A stretch of 64,000 nt of DNA from Rhodococcus sp. Z13 (GTDB lineage Bacteria; Actinomycetota; Actinomycetes; Mycobacteriales; Mycobacteriaceae): assembly GCF_025837095.1 (NCBI RefSeq), contig NZ_CP107551.1, forward strand, positions 248,001-312,000, written 5' to 3'. The translations under genes were made by a program, and so were the position numbers. Of the stretch, positions 58,386 through 64,000 are shown in pieces; positions within the stretch are counted from its first letter, which is position 1; the number at the start of each line of letters is the position of its first letter. Under the pieces are notes generated by a model that ran no database searches, had not been told where the DNA came from, and saw nothing but the letters and a program-made list of their open reading frames with translations.

Positions 58386-58862
58386 TCAGGAGACCGCGGC
58401 GGTGAGAGCGATCTCGACCGGCGCATCTCCCGGCAGGGTGTGGACGCCGATCGCGCTGCGCGCGGGCAGGTTCTCGGGGCCGAGCTCACGTTCGATCACC
58501 TCGGACGCTCCGTCCGCAACCGTGGACAGGGCTGTGAACCCGGGCGCCGTGGCAACGTAGACCACCATCTCGACGGGCCGGAACCCACGGCCGGCGGGGA
58601 GCGCCGAACGCACCGCGGCGAGCGCGTTCCCCACGGCGAGGGCGGCCGCGGACCGGGCGTCCTCGACGGACACCTCCGCCCCCACTCGGCCGGTGAGGAC
58701 CAGGACCCCGTCCCGCCGCGGTGTCATCCCGGCGGTGCGCACCGTGCCGTTCGCATACACGGCGGGCACGTACCGGCCCTGGGGAACGGGGGCGGAAACA
58801 TCCTGGACGGCTTCAGAGTTCGACACGACACCAGAATTCGACACGACATCAGAATTCGACAC
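58386..58862 (-). CDS. RidA/YjgF family protein with repeated N-terminus
   Basis: RidA proteins hydrolyse reactive enamine/imine intermediates to ketones and ammonia. The 158-residue protein has the YjgF core with RYVPAVYANGTVRTAGMTP, GNALAAVRSALP and a C-terminal GDAPVEIALTAAVS; the usual catalytic Arg of the archetype (as in RSAIGV, about 137) is present. The first 18 residues are three copies of a 6-residue unit (SNSDVV, SNSGVV, SNSEAV) encoded by an 18-bp repeat. The GTG at 58862 overlaps the GGT stop by 14 nt; other GTGs inside the repeats could be used. It ends the Rieske/GGT operon. Confidence 0.85.
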   Translation of the reverse strand: MSNSDVVSNSGVVSNSEAVQDVSAPVPQGRYVPAVYANGTVRTAGMTPRRDGVLVLTGRVGAEVSVEDARSAAALAVGNALAAVRSALPAGRGFRPVEMVVYVATAPGFTALSTVADGASEVIERELGPENLPARSAIGVHTLPGDAPVEIALTAAVS

Positions 58863-58867
58863 CGAGC
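58814..58867. repeat. 18-bp tandem repeat at the GGT/RidA gene junction
   Basis: Units at 58814-58831, 58832-58849 and 58850-58867 share CAGA(A/G)TTCGACAC with a variable end. The middle and last units are nearly identical over 14 nt. The array contains the RidA start and the GGT stop. Confidence 0.85.
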
Positions 58868-60450
58868 GCCACTCCTTCCTGTCTGGGATCGCTGCCGCCG
58901 AGCAGCACCCCGCGCTCGTCGAGCGAGACGACCTGGGCGCTGCCGTCGGCGCCGAACGCGTCGAGCGTGGTCACCCGGTGGCCGCGTTCTGCGAGGGAGG
59001 ACCGGATCTCCTCGGGGACACGCTCCTCGATGCGCAGTTCCGTCGGTTGTCCCAGGACGTCGGCGTCGGAACCGGGGAAGACCGTGAACCGGGGCGCCGA
59101 GACCGCCTGCTGGGGATCGAGTCCGTGATCGAGCAGGTGCGACAGCAGCTGGAAGTTCCACTGCACCTGACCGTCTCCACCCGGGGTGTTGCCGACGTGC
59201 TTCAGTTCCCCGGCGCTGTCGGTGACGATCCATGCGTTGAGGGTGTGCAGGGGCTTGCGTCGTGGCGCCACCTCGTTGGGATGCCCGTCCATCAGATAGG
59301 CGCCCCGGCCGAGCCGGTTGTTGAGCACGATGCCCGTGCCCGGCACCGTGAACTTGGCGCCGAAGGTGAAGGCGAGGGAGTGGATGAACGAGACCGCGCG
59401 GCCCTCGGCGTCCACGGCGACCAGTGAGGTCGTGTCCCCACCCGACACCGTGAACGCCCCGACAGGACTTCGGTTCTCGAGCCGGGCACGGCCCGCCGCG
59501 ATGTTCGCCGGGGTCAGTGCACGGTCGGCCCCGTCGTTGTCGGAACCGCACCAGCGCAACCGGTCCTCGAACGCGATCGTCGCGGCCCGGGCCATCCGGT
59601 CGACGGCGGTCGCGCCGAGCCACTGTTCGGAGGCCAGTACGCCGTCGGACAGGGCGGCCTGCTGCAGCACCATCCACCCGGGGGTCGGCAGTGGGGTCTG
59701 ATGGACGGTCGCGCCCGCATAACTGCCGGTCAGGGCGGCTTCGACGGCGACCTCCGCGCCGGCCTGCCATTCGTCGCCCGTGAACGGGGCGCCCCCGGCC
59801 TGCAGCGCGGCCACACACCGCTCGGCGAGGGAGCCCGCGTAGAAGGACTTCGGGTCCCGGGCGAGGACGCGGATCGTGTCGGCGAGATCGCGCTGGGGGA
59901 GTCGTTCACCCACGTGCGGCACCGTCCCGCCGGGGGTGTACACGCTCGCCAGCCCGGCGTCCCCGTGGATCGCGGTGAGGGCCGTCCGCACGTCGGTGCG
60001 GGTCTTCGCCGAGCAGGGCAGACCCCTCTCGGCGAGCCGGGCGGCGGCCTCCCACAGCTCCGGCAACGGCCGGCTCGCCCCGCGGGCGTGCAGGGCGGAC
60101 AGCGCGGCGGGGGCACCCGGAACGGCGACGGCCAGCGCCCCGTCGAGCGGGATGGCGTCGAATCCGCGTTCGCGGTAGAACGCGGAGGTGCCACCGTCGG
60201 GGCCGTAGCCGCTGCCGTTGACCGTCCAGACCGTACCGTCGGGATCGCGGACCACCGCGAAGGCGTCACCGCCGATACCGCACTGGCCGGGCAGCGTCAG
60301 CCAGGTCACCGCGGCCATCGCCAGCGCGGCGTCGACGGCGTTGCCCCCGTCGGCCAGGACCCGCGCTCCCGCCTGGCTCGCGAGCGGATGACTCGAGGCG
60401 ACCATGCCTCCCGTCGCGAGGGCGGGGGGTCGCAGCGCCTGCGCGCTCAT
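58849..60450 (-). CDS. Gamma-glutamyltransferase family hydrolase, cytoplasmic
   Basis: The 533-residue protein is an N-terminal-nucleophile hydrolase precursor of the gamma-glutamyltransferase/acylase family. It opens with GGMVASSHPLASQAGARVLADGGNAVDAALA and has the self-processing Thr in GGDTTSLVAVDAEG (Thr about 342), followed by GTGIVLNNRLG and NTPGGDGQVQWNFQ near the C-terminus. No signal peptide is present, unlike exported glutathione-degrading GGTs, so it likely acts on an intracellular gamma-glutamyl or acyl substrate. Its ATG overlaps the stop of the small Rieske gene as ATGA. The last codons run into an 18-bp repeat shared with the RidA gene. Confidence 0.88.
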   Translation of the reverse strand: MSAQALRPPALATGGMVASSHPLASQAGARVLADGGNAVDAALAMAAVTWLTLPGQCGIGGDAFAVVRDPDGTVWTVNGSGYGPDGGTSAFYRERGFDAIPLDGALAVAVPGAPAALSALHARGASRPLPELWEAAARLAERGLPCSAKTRTDVRTALTAIHGDAGLASVYTPGGTVPHVGERLPQRDLADTIRVLARDPKSFYAGSLAERCVAALQAGGAPFTGDEWQAGAEVAVEAALTGSYAGATVHQTPLPTPGWMVLQQAALSDGVLASEQWLGATAVDRMARAATIAFEDRLRWCGSDNDGADRALTPANIAAGRARLENRSPVGAFTVSGGDTTSLVAVDAEGRAVSFIHSLAFTFGAKFTVPGTGIVLNNRLGRGAYLMDGHPNEVAPRRKPLHTLNAWIVTDSAGELKHVGNTPGGDGQVQWNFQLLSHLLDHGLDPQQAVSAPRFTVFPGSDADVLGQPTELRIEERVPEEIRSSLAERGHRVTTLDAFGADGSAQVVSLDERGVLLGGSDPRQEGVALGVEF

Positions 60451-60803
60451 GCCGAGCGCATCCGGCGACGGCGGGGACCTTCCGGGGGTTCGCTCGGATC
60501 GATGCCGACGAAGATCTCGCCGTCTCGTTCCTCGCACGGATAGGTCTTGATCGGCTCGGTGGCCGGCGGGCAGATCGGCTCACCCGTCTCGAGATCGAAA
60601 GCGCTTCCGTGGCAGGAGCATCCGATTCCGTCCTGCACGAGCTTGCCGGACGACAGCAGGCAGTCGAGGTGGGAGCAGTAGTTCGACGTCGCGTACGCCT
60701 TGCCGTCCAGGCGGGAGATCGCGAACTCGTAGTCGTCGGCGTAGAACCGGCGGACGATGCCTTCGGGCACCTGCCCGGATCGGGCCACTCGCTTGAACTC
60801 CAT
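60447..60803 (-). CDS. Rieske [2Fe-2S] ferredoxin-like protein (second copy)
   Basis: The 118-residue protein is a single Rieske domain with Cys43-x-His45 and Cys62-x2-His65, and an extra Cys pair (Cys48, Cys64) nearby. Such proteins carry electrons to oxygenases or act as small oxygenase subunits. It ends in an unusual Pro/Arg tail (PEGPRRRRMRSA). GGAGGAAAG precedes the ATG. It sits between the aldehyde dehydrogenase and GGT genes and differs clearly from the ferredoxin at 63513. One of the two may serve a second redox step. Confidence 0.88.
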   Translation of the reverse strand: MEFKRVARSGQVPEGIVRRFYADDYEFAISRLDGKAYATSNYCSHLDCLLSSGKLVQDGIGCSCHGSAFDLETGEPICPPATEPIKTYPCEERDGEIFVGIDPSEPPEGPRRRRMRSA

Positions 60804-60844
60804 GGTCTTTCCTCCAGGCATGTGTGGTGGGTGTCGGGTCGTGG

Positions 60845-62293
60845 TCAGGCGTCGGGGGAGAGGTAGACGGTCTTCTCGGACTGGTAGAACTGCATGAGCG
60901 TCGGCCCCGCCTGTTCCTTGAACGTCTGGGTGCTCGACTGCTTGTAACCGCCGAAGGGGGCGTTCATGGCCATCCCGGTCGTGGGCTGGTTGACCTTGAC
61001 CAGGCCGGTCCGCGAGCCGGCGACGAATCGCTGTGCGTCCGCAAGGTTCTTCGTGACGATCGCGGCACTCAGCCCGAAGGCGGTGTCGTTCGCCAGGCGC
61101 AGCGCCTCGTCGAAGGAACCGGCGCGCTGGAAGGCCAGTAGCGGGCCGAAGATCTCGTCGGTCAGCAGCCGCATCCCGGGGGTGGTGTCGGCGAAGATCG
61201 TGGGCCGCACGAAGAACCCCTTCGTCGACGCCTCGCTCCGGGTGCCGCCGCACACGAGCCGGGCACCCTCGTCGACACCGATCGCGACGTAGGCGAGGAA
61301 CTTGTCGAGCTGGCCACGGCTGGCGAGGGGGCCCATCGAGATCCCTGCCTCCGCGCCGTTGCCGACGGTCAGCTGCTCGGCCCGGGCGACGACCTTCTCG
61401 AGCAGCGCGTCGTGGATCTCGTCCACCGCGACGACACGGCTGGTTCCGGTGCAGGCCTGACCCGACAATCCGAAGGCGCCCTTGATGATCAGGGCCGCTG
61501 CGGCGTCGAGATCGGCATCGGCGAGCACGACGACGGGGTTCTTGCCGCCCATCTCGAGCTGGACCCGCCGGTCGGGACCGACGGCCGCATGGATCCGCCT
61601 GCCCACCTCCGTGGACCCGGTGAACGTCACCGCCGCGACCCGCTCGTCACCGGCCACCGCGGCACCGGCCTTGCCGTCGCCCTGGACGAGGGCGATCGCC
61701 CCGGCGGGCAGACCGCCGGCGAGCAGGGCCTCGACGAGACGCTGTCCCATGAGCGGGGTGATCTCGGACGGCTTGAACAACACGGTGTTCCCGGCTGCGA
61801 GCGCGGGACCGAGCTTGCGGGAGGGGATGTTGAGCGGGAAGTTCCAAGGGGTGACGGCACCGACGATCCCGATCGGCTCGCGCACCGTGTACACCAGGGT
61901 GGAGCCGGGCGCCGGATAGGTCGCGCCCGTCGACCGGAGGGCCTCACCGGCGTAGAAGCGCAGGTTGAGCGGGGTCCGGCTCACCTCCATGGTGGCCTCG
62001 GCGCGGGTCTTGCCCTCCTCGCGGATCAGCTCCTCGACGAGGTCTGCGGCCCGGGCCTCCAGATGGTCGGCGGCGGCCTCGAGAATCGCGGCGCGACGCT
62101 CGGGCGGGGTGGCGGCCCACTCCGGGGCGGCCTTGTCCAGGGCGTCGACGGCGTTGCGCACGTCGATGGCATCGGAGTCGGGGAAGGTGCCGACGAGATC
62201 GGAATCGTCGGCGGGATTGCGCCTTTCGAAGACGGCTCCCGAAGCCGCCGGCACCCAGGCGCCGTCGACGAAGTTCAGTCCGGTGACGCTCAT
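60845..62293 (-). CDS. Aldehyde dehydrogenase (semialdehyde dehydrogenase-like)
   Basis: The 482-residue protein is an NAD(P)-dependent aldehyde dehydrogenase with the structural TPWNFPLNIPSRKLGPALAAGNTVLFKPSE block, catalytic Glu in LEMGGKNP (about 247), catalytic Cys in GQACTGTSR (about 281) and EIFGPLL. The overall pattern resembles 2-oxoglutarate-semialdehyde dehydrogenases, though that substrate is not proven. It overlaps the FAD reductase stop as ATGA and would oxidise an aldehyde made by the pathway's oxygenase or amine-handling step. Confidence 0.9.
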   Translation of the reverse strand: MSVTGLNFVDGAWVPAASGAVFERRNPADDSDLVGTFPDSDAIDVRNAVDALDKAAPEWAATPPERRAAILEAAADHLEARAADLVEELIREEGKTRAEATMEVSRTPLNLRFYAGEALRSTGATYPAPGSTLVYTVREPIGIVGAVTPWNFPLNIPSRKLGPALAAGNTVLFKPSEITPLMGQRLVEALLAGGLPAGAIALVQGDGKAGAAVAGDERVAAVTFTGSTEVGRRIHAAVGPDRRVQLEMGGKNPVVVLADADLDAAAALIIKGAFGLSGQACTGTSRVVAVDEIHDALLEKVVARAEQLTVGNGAEAGISMGPLASRGQLDKFLAYVAIGVDEGARLVCGGTRSEASTKGFFVRPTIFADTTPGMRLLTDEIFGPLLAFQRAGSFDEALRLANDTAFGLSAAIVTKNLADAQRFVAGSRTGLVKVNQPTTGMAMNAPFGGYKQSSTQTFKEQAGPTLMQFYQSEKTVYLSPDA

Positions 62294-63516
62294 GCGGGCT
62301 CGACCTCCTCGTACATCTCCCACAGATCGGTGTCCTCGTCGGCGAGGAGGTTCGCGTCGACCCGGCGGCCGACGAGTTCGCGGGCGGCCATGATGTCCTC
62401 GCCGCGGTCCATCGCGAAGGCCGCGGTGAGCACGTCCCCGGCGAGATAGAAGATCGAGAACTCGCCCGAATCGGTGTCGCCGCGCACGACGAGCTCGGTG
62501 GTGCCGACGGTGGTGCCGGTGAACTGGATGTTGCTGTCGTACTGGTCCGACCAGAACCAGTGCGGGTCGTCGGAGAGGGAGGTGCGGCCGACGATGGTGT
62601 CGGCGACGACCGCGGCCTGCCGGTTCGCGTTGTCGGAGTGCTCGACGCGGATGTGCCGGCCCTCGCGGGGAGAGAAGCGGTTCGCGACGTCCCCGGCGGC
62701 GTAGACGTATCCGGTCGAGGCGCGACCGCCGGCGTCGACCACGACGCCGTTGTCGACGGCGAGTCCACTGGCGGCCGCCACCTCGGTGTTGGGCACGATG
62801 CCGATCCCGACCACCACGGCGTCTGCCTCGATCACGTCGCCGGTGGTGGTGATGATCCGGACCCCGGCGTCCGAGGTCGTCACCGAGGCGACCCCGGTGC
62901 CGGTGCGCAGGTCGACGCCGTTGCGGCGGTGCAGATCCGCGCAGAGGGTCCCGGCCCGTGCGCCGAGGACGTTGCCGAGCAGATTCGGGGCCTGCTCGAG
63001 CACGGTCACGGTCACCCCCAGTGCCCGTGCGGTCGCAGCGATCTCGAGCCCGATGAAGCCGCCGCCGACGACGGCGAGGGACGAACCTGGAGTGAGCCGC
63101 GCGGCGAGCGCGGTCGCATCGTCGAGGGTGCGGAGGTAGTGGACCAGATCGGGACGCGTGCCGGTGGTGGCGAGGGTGCGCGGCCGGCCGCCGGTGGCGA
63201 GGACGACCGCGTCGGCGGCGATGCTGCCGCCGTCGAACTCGACGATGCGCGCCGTGGTGTCCACGCGCCGCACCGTGATCCCGGTGCGGATGTCGATGTC
63301 GTTGGCCTCGAGCCATTTCGGGGTCAGCAGCGCGAGCGACCCGGCCGGCTCCCGGCCGGCGAGGAACGCCTTCGACAGGGGAGGCCGCTGGTAGGGAGCG
63401 TGGGGTTCGTCGCCGAGCAGGACGATGCGTCCGTCGAATCCGCGGCGGCGCAGGGTGCGGGCGGCGACGGCGGCGACCTGGCCGGCGCCGACGGTGACTA
63501 CGGTGCGAACGGTCAT
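62290..63516 (-). CDS. FAD-dependent ferredoxin reductase (Rieske oxygenase type)
   Basis: The 408-residue protein passes electrons from NAD(P)H through FAD to a ferredoxin. It has an FAD Rossmann motif VGAGQVAAVAA (about 8-18, the third Gly replaced by Ala), LLGDEPHAPYQRPPLSK (about 35-51), an NAD motif VVGGGFIGLEIAA (about 150-162), GYVYAAGDVA (about 272-281) and a reductase C-terminal domain. AAGGAG lies 8 nt before the ATG at 63516. The ATG overlaps the ferredoxin stop as ATGA, the classic order for an oxygenase electron chain. Confidence 0.92.
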   Translation of the reverse strand: MTVRTVVTVGAGQVAAVAARTLRRRGFDGRIVLLGDEPHAPYQRPPLSKAFLAGREPAGSLALLTPKWLEANDIDIRTGITVRRVDTTARIVEFDGGSIAADAVVLATGGRPRTLATTGTRPDLVHYLRTLDDATALAARLTPGSSLAVVGGGFIGLEIAATARALGVTVTVLEQAPNLLGNVLGARAGTLCADLHRRNGVDLRTGTGVASVTTSDAGVRIITTTGDVIEADAVVVGIGIVPNTEVAAASGLAVDNGVVVDAGGRASTGYVYAAGDVANRFSPREGRHIRVEHSDNANRQAAVVADTIVGRTSLSDDPHWFWSDQYDSNIQFTGTTVGTTELVVRGDTDSGEFSIFYLAGDVLTAAFAMDRGEDIMAARELVGRRVDANLLADEDTDLWEMYEEVEPA

Positions 63517-63890
63517 GCCGTGCACTCCTTTCCGGAGTTCTGCGCGTCGCGTCGTGGGGTGGGGTCAATGTGGACGGTGTCGTCGCGCACGAGGACGGGA
63601 TAGGTCGGCTGGCAGAGGTCCTGGTCCTCCTCGTAGCCGGTCTCGAGGTCGAACTGCCACTGGTGGCCGGGGCAGATGACACGGCCGTGGAGGAGCGTGC
63701 CCTTCGTCAGGGAACGATCCTGATGGACGCACAGGTCGGCGAAGGCGTAGATGCGGTCGTTCGCGTGGAACAGGGCGATCGCGACACCATCGACCTCCAC
63801 GCGCACCTTGCGGCGCCGGGTCACCTCCTTCACGGTCGCGACGGCGACCCAGGTCTGCGGGGCGGCGGTATCCGTGGTCTCGGTGGACAT
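63513..63890 (-). CDS. Rieske [2Fe-2S] ferredoxin
   Basis: The 125-residue protein has the Rieske ligands Cys54-x-His56 and Cys73-x2-His76 (CVHQDRS, CPGHQWQFDLETG) and no redox-domain fusion. It would carry electrons from the adjacent FAD reductase to an oxygenase. AAGGAGAAAC precedes the ATG. A 12-bp hairpin lies between it and the next upstream gene, which is cut by the window edge. Confidence 0.92.
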   Translation of the reverse strand: MSTETTDTAAPQTWVAVATVKEVTRRRKVRVEVDGVAIALFHANDRIYAFADLCVHQDRSLTKGTLLHGRVICPGHQWQFDLETGYEEDQDLCQPTYPVLVRDDTVHIDPTPRRDAQNSGKECTA

Positions 63891-63914
63891 GTTTCTCCTT
63901 CGCTCGTGTGCGGC

Positions 63915-63949
63915 GGGGAGCGGAAGACGTTGCGCGGCTTCCGCTCCCC
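63915..63949 (-). terminator. Intra-operon hairpin upstream of the Rieske ferredoxin
   Basis: GGGGAGCGGAAG (63915-63926) pairs perfectly with CTTCCGCTCCCC (63938-63949) around 11 nt. It follows the stop of the truncated gene by 11 nt. It may attenuate or process the operon message. Confidence 0.65.
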
Positions 63950-63960
63950 ACACATCGGGA

Positions 63961-64000
63961 TCAGGCGGACGCCAACTCCAGGTCGGGTGCGACGTAGGTG
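63961..64000 (-). CDS. 3' end of a gene cut by the window edge, probably the oxygenase
   Basis: Only the last 12 codons are visible, reading TYVAPDLELASA and then a TGA at 63963-63961. The tail alone does not identify the product. Its position directly before a Rieske ferredoxin and its reductase makes an oxygenase component, either a Rieske alpha subunit or a P450, the likeliest content; this is inference. Confidence 0.45.
   Translation of the reverse strand, partial: TYVAPDLELASA

Follow-up and report, generated by a model that had tools for sequence, protein, structure and literature searches.

A probable catabolic gene module centred on a haem-oxygenase-like diiron oxidase in Rhodococcus sp. 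Z13

In the gamma-glutamyl pathways for putrescine (Puu) and isopropylamine (Ipu), an aldehyde dehydrogenase (ALDH) and a hydrolase act after the oxidation step. The Rut pyrimidine pathway (RutA-G) has an oxygenase, which is a RutA-type LLM flavin monooxygenase, together with a reductase, an amide hydrolase of RutB type with an isochorismatase fold, and a permease. Here we describe an operon of Rhodococcus sp. Z13 with resemblances to these systems, located at the right end of the 64,000-nucleotide stretch that was analyzed (the window, bases 248001-312000 of a 4.53 Mb genome in one contig) and continuing past its edge. It encodes a haem-oxygenase-like diiron oxidase/oxygenase (HDO), a Rieske ferredoxin (Rieske1), an FAD-dependent ferredoxin reductase, an ALDH, a second Rieske-type protein (Rieske2), an amidohydrolase with the fold of gamma-glutamyltransferase (GGT) and a RidA-like protein. 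With neighboring genes for a GlcG/HbpS protein, a PucR-type regulator, an MFS protein and a permease, these form a module of 11 genes. We consider it probable that this is an inducible catabolic module centred on the HDO, and it looks like a pathway that degrades a carboxylic acid containing nitrogen, a role we infer from the sequences.

According to a 2026 review (PMC13108848), HDOs follow the rule of a dimetal ligand set of three His and three carboxylates (3H/3C), about a dozen members out of more than 10,000 are validated, the family is tied to natural-product biosynthesis, and new methods are key for its deorphanization. The main text of the review, in the part available, mentions a redox partner, MboB; it contains neither a catabolic HDO nor the word ferredoxin, and Rieske occurs in other contexts only. 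The HDOs named there are all biosynthetic, and a catabolic HDO thus appears to be a new variant. Neither such an enzyme nor the gene set described here was found in open-licence PMC papers, among the matches listed.

An earlier note on this DNA had read the window genes as part of an oxygenase chain with a Rieske or P450 step and had pointed to the sequence right of position 64000 for the oxygenase. One is indeed encoded there, directly past the window edge, and the chain stands, but the enzyme belongs to neither the P450s nor the Rieske oxygenases. Both were ruled out as the missing oxygenase, as the gene upstream of Rieske1 encodes the HDO, and neither was detected among the right-flank genes run through Pfam (part of the 14 kb right flank). 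The metal ligands E85, H92, E148, H179, D183 and H186, which by sequence make up the 3H/3C set of the superfamily, are present in 83/83 module HDOs, three from Burkholderiales included, and do not vary either when 22 module proteins are aligned with 13 distant HDO-like ones. The AlphaFold2 model has a haem-oxygenase-like alpha7 fold (pLDDT 81.2, the best of five models, the other four reaching 61.3 at most), and Foldseek matched it to CtCADD with a TM score of 0.86 by target length, and also to PqqC, UndA, BesC (TM ~0.7) and HrmI.

Among relatives of solved structure, the p-aminobenzoate synthases (CADD and NePabS) are nearest in sequence; with this closest sequence family the module HDO has the fold and the 3H/3C ligands in common. 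The score against the CADD model TIGR04305 was 95.7 bits, missing the cut-off of 200, and that against the PqqC model was likewise below its cut-off. The CADD enzyme consumes its own Tyr27 and Lys152 (PMC11965152, in the part available), whereas the module HDOs have Ser29 and Gln158 at these positions in 83 of 83 cases, and the identity of the HDO as a p-aminobenzoate synthase was rejected for this reason. Also unlike CADD and NePabS, the module HDO is encoded in an operon of catabolic type, together with a Rieske electron chain.

In 84,980 species genomes scanned, 494 stretches encode an HDO relative, and the best 80 of these were kept; locus counts refer to the 61 with about 10 kb on both sides, and the 19 shorter loci were left out. 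A match of >40 bits counted as presence of a gene, including partial matches where a contig ended and matches to a more distantly related ALDH type. As the 80 loci are the nearest relatives, their conservation is overstated for the wider family, and gene calls elsewhere are mechanical; the Burkholderiales sample consists of seven plasmid records. The genes for HDO, Rieske1 and the reductase were adjacent and in the same order, with Rieske1 between the other two, in all 61 full-length loci, and all 11 module genes were detected in 52 of them, in several gene orders. The order of the window is the commonest (37/61), which answers the earlier suggestion to look for it in other genomes. Elsewhere, as in Blastococcus, Nocardioides, Streptomyces, Pseudonocardia and Actinomadura, GlcG, PucR and MFS are relocated, or GGT, RidA or ALDH lies ahead of HDO. 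In the other nine full-length loci, one to three of GlcG, GGT, RidA, MFS, ALDH, PucR and the permease are absent from the stretch covered. Forms of the module also occur in Rhodococcus jostii and Cupriavidus metallidurans CH34. Given its recurrence across Actinobacteria, the gene set is far beyond chance. The HDO is the most conserved protein (mean pairwise identity 87% over 60 loci), followed by GlcG; Rhodococcus loci L058-L060 encode an HDO 99-100% identical to that of Z13. The pairwise identities of the HDO correlate well with those of Rieske1 (r 0.85) and GGT (r 0.85) and less with those of Rieske2 (r 0.73).

HDO orthologues (83-100% identity) were found in 18 of 201 genomes of the family, a 19th match being only 25% identical. 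Rieske2 and the permease occur in the same 18 genomes, as does GlcG at ≥81% identity (11 further genomes have it at ≤50%), and the module GGT occurs in these 18 plus one other, G134; the 201 genomes are mutually related, and no probability is attached to the co-occurrence. The module is present in 10 of the 15 same-genus genomes listed. Across the phylum, 60 of 396 genomes had an HDO match at E 0.001, those above 31% identity being only the genome itself and G231 (76%). In G134 the module GGT stands alone (L150:5103-6995), between genes that by eye match the module flanks in R. opacus (L065), and it is likely a remnant of the module after deletion.

The same cluster could be biosynthetic, making a small cofactor or natural product as characterized HDOs do, in keeping with the HDOs of the review (PMC13108848, in the part available) and with the p-aminobenzoate synthases as closest structurally solved relatives. 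The scattered distribution over 18 of 201 genomes and the absence of the sacrificial Tyr and Lys from every module HDO speak against this. Moreover, Pfam revealed no synthetase, ligase or transferase among the 11 genes, the GGT fold aside, and the importer-type permease, the ALDH, Rid, the hydrolase and PucR have a catabolic character, so we regard a biosynthetic cluster as quite unlikely.

In the actinobacterial loci the electron chain comprises Rieske1 and a reductase of HcaD type, with Rieske2 somewhere near. The Cys and His ligands are conserved in 79/79 Rieske1 and 74/74 Rieske2 proteins, and the best NCBIfam match of the reductase is NF042949 (349.1 bits, below the cut-off of 450). Rieske1 is likely the electron donor of the HDO. 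Riboflavin/lumichrome catabolism was considered as an identity of the pathway and rejected: PMC12746152 reports a Rieske dioxygenase route and, in the part available, contains none of the terms diiron, haem oxygenase, gamma-glutamyl and RidA.

The amidohydrolase keeps the catalytic Thr at the N-terminus of the small subunit (T340/T341) in 67 of 69 orthologues, two being gapped. Its match to TIGR00066 is 235.7 bits, below the cut-off of 357.85. The residues with which E. coli GGT binds the gamma-glutamyl group are Arg114, Asp433 and Ser462/Ser463. None of the 66-67 of 69 orthologues with a readable residue at these positions keeps them; Ser (67), Arg (67), His (62; Asn in 4) and Thr (66) stand there instead, the remainder being gapped. 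In the same comparison a GGT of the genome itself (L141, G000:C1:3403671) keeps Arg, Asp and Ser-Ser, and the comparison is therefore able to recognize a GGT with these residues. Every one of the 67 readable sequences has the change from Asp to Arg (R382), and by eye so does a 29%-identical GGT-like protein of L151, a distant genome of the phylum. In GGTs the Asp433-type residue holds the substrate amino group, and Arg at this position suggests a carboxylate in its place. The motifs P-L-H-T-L-N and G-G-D-G-Q are common with PDB entry 5hft (P-[LF]-H-T-L-N and G-G-D-G-Q), which the PDB lists as a gamma-glutamyltranspeptidase and which we take to be the oxamate amidohydrolase KpHpxW. That enzyme also has the GGT fold, but has Ala at the Asp433 position.

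These residues bear on the gamma-glutamyl amine pathway proposed in the earlier note, in which an amine receives glutamate from a ligase and is then oxidized by the oxygenase chain and ALDH, after which a cytosolic GGT-like hydrolase releases glutamate. An oxygenase, an ALDH, a GGT fold and a RidA do occur together, and an ALDH and a hydrolase accompany an oxidation step as in Puu and Ipu. Unlike Puu and Ipu, however, the module has no linked ligase, its gamma-glutamyl site is lost and its oxygenase is a diiron enzyme. The ligase like glutamine synthetase (GS) that had been expected in the right flank is not near, as all four GS-like genes (PF00120) of the genome are >1.2 Mb from the operon, whichever way the genome is read. 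The hydrolase misses the TIGR00066 equivalog cut-off and has lost the gamma-glutamyl-binding residues in every readable orthologue, and five module genomes have no GGT orthologue. The gamma-glutamyl route was rejected on the grounds of the residues, the unlinked ligase and the genomes without GGT, and it seems to us extremely improbable, while the catabolic oxygenase chain with ALDH and RidA is retained.

In the same genome but outside the window (L143, G000:C1:3618662-3621920), a GS-like gene (PF00120) adjoins another GGT-like gene. A gamma-glutamyl-type pathway is more plausible for this pair than for the window operon; the GGT-like protein of the pair is likewise without the Arg and Ser-Ser signature.

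The Arg105 equivalent of RidA, R135, is kept in 68/68 orthologues. Rid proteins without this Arg show no deaminase activity in the RutC paper (PMC8113886, in the part available), and its conservation supports the imine-clearing role first suggested for RidA. In Cupriavidus, Caballeronia and L151, the HDO-ALDH-GlcG set occurs with an ornithine-cyclodeaminase (OCD)-type protein and without Rid. Among 87 loci, 70 have Rid only, 4 have OCD only, none has both and 13 have neither, the last being 11 short contigs, L137 and the HDO-less L153. Since Rid and OCD-type proteins both act on imines, an imine intermediate in the pathway is likely.

The ALDH is nearest to alpha-ketoglutarate semialdehyde dehydrogenase families (NF052305, 502.9 bits vs a cut-off of 750), and these were the best ALDH family in five of seven loci tested (L009, the locus of this study, and L113, L138, L139 and L151), always below cut-off. 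Cys281 is conserved in 76 of 77 ALDHs and Arg159 of the xRK motif in 75 of 77, the latter presumably being the carboxylate contact in such semialdehyde dehydrogenases.

The GlcG protein matches EfgA, a formaldehyde sensor, at E 9.8e-18. This would agree with a BesC-like C-C cleavage, in which the HDO acts on the side chain of an amino acid and frees formaldehyde and ammonia from it, GlcG is an EfgA-type formaldehyde binder, and Rid and ALDH process the rest. BesC releases formaldehyde and ammonia (PMC13108848, in the part available), the HDO model matches it, and GlcG is second in conservation. The HDO sequence is nevertheless closer to CADD/PqqC than to BesC, PduO, NahX and a haem-binding protein are among the GlcG relatives of known structure, no formaldehyde dehydrogenase was found among the genes run through Pfam or NCBIfam, and the amidohydrolase is left unexplained. 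We think a BesC-like reaction unlikely.

Another relative of GlcG, HbpS, is described as sensing haem, and the MFS protein is nearest to efflux pumps, although below cut-off. Both could fit a module for detoxification or stress (haem, oxidative or xenobiotic) instead of a growth pathway. The ALDH, Rid, hydrolase and importer-type permease exceed the needs of detoxification, however, and the HDO carries diiron ligands, which makes such a module very improbable in our view.

The permease was assigned to no Pfam or NCBIfam family, the only Pfam match within an E limit of 10 being of chance level. The permease model (pLDDT 78) comes closest in fold to MleN, TRAP SiaQM, INDY and YdaH/MtrF, mostly anion carriers, and these structure matches are modest (three at E ≤0.001, TM 0.60 at most). 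A second permease copy, 46-49% identical, is present in 8 of the 18 module genomes. Three second copies were inspected (L147-L149); an amidase lies beside two (in L149 by sequence likeness) and an isochorismatase-type hydrolase beside one (L148). A permease relative is beside an amidase in both L147 and L113. The conjugative plasmid p1 of Arthrobacter sulfonylureivorans (L153) has a permease relative (41-47% identical) with an amidase, an ALDH and a Rid-family gene, as in the module, but its oxygenase is an LLM flavin enzyme, CoA enzymes are present, and there is no HDO or GlcG match. This recurring kind of gene set resembles the Rut uracil pathway in logic.

Sequence, models and distribution directly support the gene content, the co-inheritance, the fold and ligands of the HDO, the adjacency of HDO, Rieske1 and reductase in Actinobacteria and the loss of the gamma-glutamyl site from the GGT-like enzyme. 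For the inducible catabolic module, we propose the following steps. The anion-carrier-type permease would import a nitrogen-containing carboxylate, and electrons from NAD(P)H would pass through the FAD reductase and the Rieske ferredoxin to the HDO, which would oxidize the substrate with O2, opening or splitting it. The GGT-fold hydrolase would cut an amide bond, Rid (or the OCD-type protein in Burkholderiales and one distant genome of the phylum) would take off the resulting imine/enamine nitrogen, and the ALDH would turn a carboxylate-bearing semialdehyde into a dicarboxylate. GlcG possibly binds a reactive aldehyde or other intermediate, a guess from its relative EfgA, and PucR would control the module. 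Tentatively, the HDO may be a ring-opening or C-C/C-N-cleaving oxygenase that degrades an N-heterocyclic or amino carboxylic acid of soil, driven in Actinobacteria by a Rieske ferredoxin and reductase of its own, and the Ntn amidohydrolase acting after it may have a carboxylate site where GGTs hold the gamma-glutamyl amino group (Asp to Arg).

This order of steps is Rut-like, and our confidence in it is clearly lower than in a catabolic HDO module. The module resembles Rut in that its operon has a Rid deaminase bearing the catalytic Arg, in the semialdehyde product and in the divergently encoded regulator (PMC8113886, in the part available). An oxygenase, an amide hydrolase and a permease are further components of both. 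Neither a RutA-type LLM flavin monooxygenase nor a RutB-type isochorismatase hydrolase was found among the operon genes by Pfam. Unlike Rut, the module has an HDO, a GGT-fold hydrolase, a dehydrogenase and an unrelated permease.

Several observations weigh against the catabolic module as proposed. The HDO model is weak at residues 74-87 (pLDDT <50), ligand E85 among them. The link between the 2Fe-2S chain and the HDO rests on gene order; the Cupriavidus and Caballeronia loci (L138-L140, Burkholderiales) have plant-type ferredoxins and a BenC-like reductase instead of the Rieske chain, and L151 carries a plant-type ferredoxin, indicating that only some 2Fe-2S chain is constant and that its type is variable. 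No GGT match at E 1e-40 was found in the module genomes of L111, L114, L124 and L136 (eight genomes searched), that of L137 has only 31-37% identical GGT paralogues, and no clear replacement was seen there except a dienelactone-hydrolase-type gene beside the L137 module; the GGT-like enzyme may thus act at entry or on one branch. The pairwise identities of ALDH (r 0.68), GlcG (r 0.63) and RidA (r 0.52) track those of the HDO only moderately over the 60 loci, so some members may have been exchanged. The four OCD-only loci represent two lineages, not four independent cases. The ALDH is below every NCBIfam cut-off seen, and no family match at 1e-110 was obtained for the ALDHs encoded in the L104 and L121 modules.

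The layout of the operon agrees with the overlapping consecutive genes and single 41-nt gap described earlier, gene by gene: the junctions from Rieske1 through reductase, ALDH, Rieske2 and GGT-like to RidA are ATGA (-4), ATGA (-4), +41 nt, ATGA (-4) and -14 nt. The earlier count of five genes was mistaken, as its own list names six, but all six are real, and Pfam matches back every name given to them (Table 1). The operon extends upstream with the HDO gene, which ends 70 nt before Rieske1, and GlcG/HbpS, which ends 62 nt before HDO. Inspection by eye of the N-terminus of the GGT-like protein (MSAQALRPPALATGG) showed no hydrophobic stretch resembling a signal, in line with the earlier statement that it has no signal peptide. 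At the beginning of the RidA gene (58809-58862), overlapping the end of the GGT-like gene, there are by eye three near-copies of an 18-nt unit (VVSNS-like), and the true start may be downstream of the GTG. A protein of cluster c10 (e.g., L076:3524-4252) is encoded near the module in 37 of 84 clustered loci; Pfam, applied to one member, identified it as a DUF1275 membrane protein.

Table 1 Genes of the module. Coordinates are in window numbering unless prefixed L009, a 20 kb locus across the window end (14 kb to its right); window position = L009 position + 58000.
Feature	Length	Coordinates	Strand	Pfam match	Remark
RidA-like (Rid family) imine/enamine deaminase	158 aa from GTG	58386-58862	-	PF01042 51 bits	
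GGT-fold Ntn amidohydrolase (GGT-like)	533 aa	58849-60450	-	PF01019 312 bits	without gamma-glutamyl-binding residues
Rieske2, Rieske-type [2Fe-2S] protein	118 aa	60447-60803	-	PF00355 64.9 bits	
ALDH, aldehyde dehydrogenase	482 aa	60845-62293	-	PF00171	
FAD-dependent ferredoxin reductase (HcaD/AndAa type)	408 aa	62290-63516	-	PF07992, PF14759	
Rieske1 ferredoxin	125 aa	63513-63890	-	PF00355 57.3 bits	
HDO (haem-oxygenase-like diiron oxidase)	239 aa	63961-64680	-	PF14518 124.8 bits	last 40 nt (63961-64000) inside window
GlcG/HbpS	149 aa	64743-65192 (L009:6743-7192)	-		outside window
PucR-type regulator		L009:7513-9168	+		outside window, divergent from GlcG/HDO operon
MFS protein		L009:9190-10560	-		outside window
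Permease	528 aa	68935-70521 (L009:10935-12521)	+		outside window

The hydrolase of the module should not be read as a gamma-glutamyltransferase. The HDO group is conserved, has partners fixed in the genome and occurs in many culturable soil bacteria, which makes its substrate and reaction accessible by growth and induction screens. The module would reveal how an HDO obtains electrons in the cell, and it would suggest what a GlcG/HbpS protein does, as well as a role for a transporter family that Pfam does not cover.

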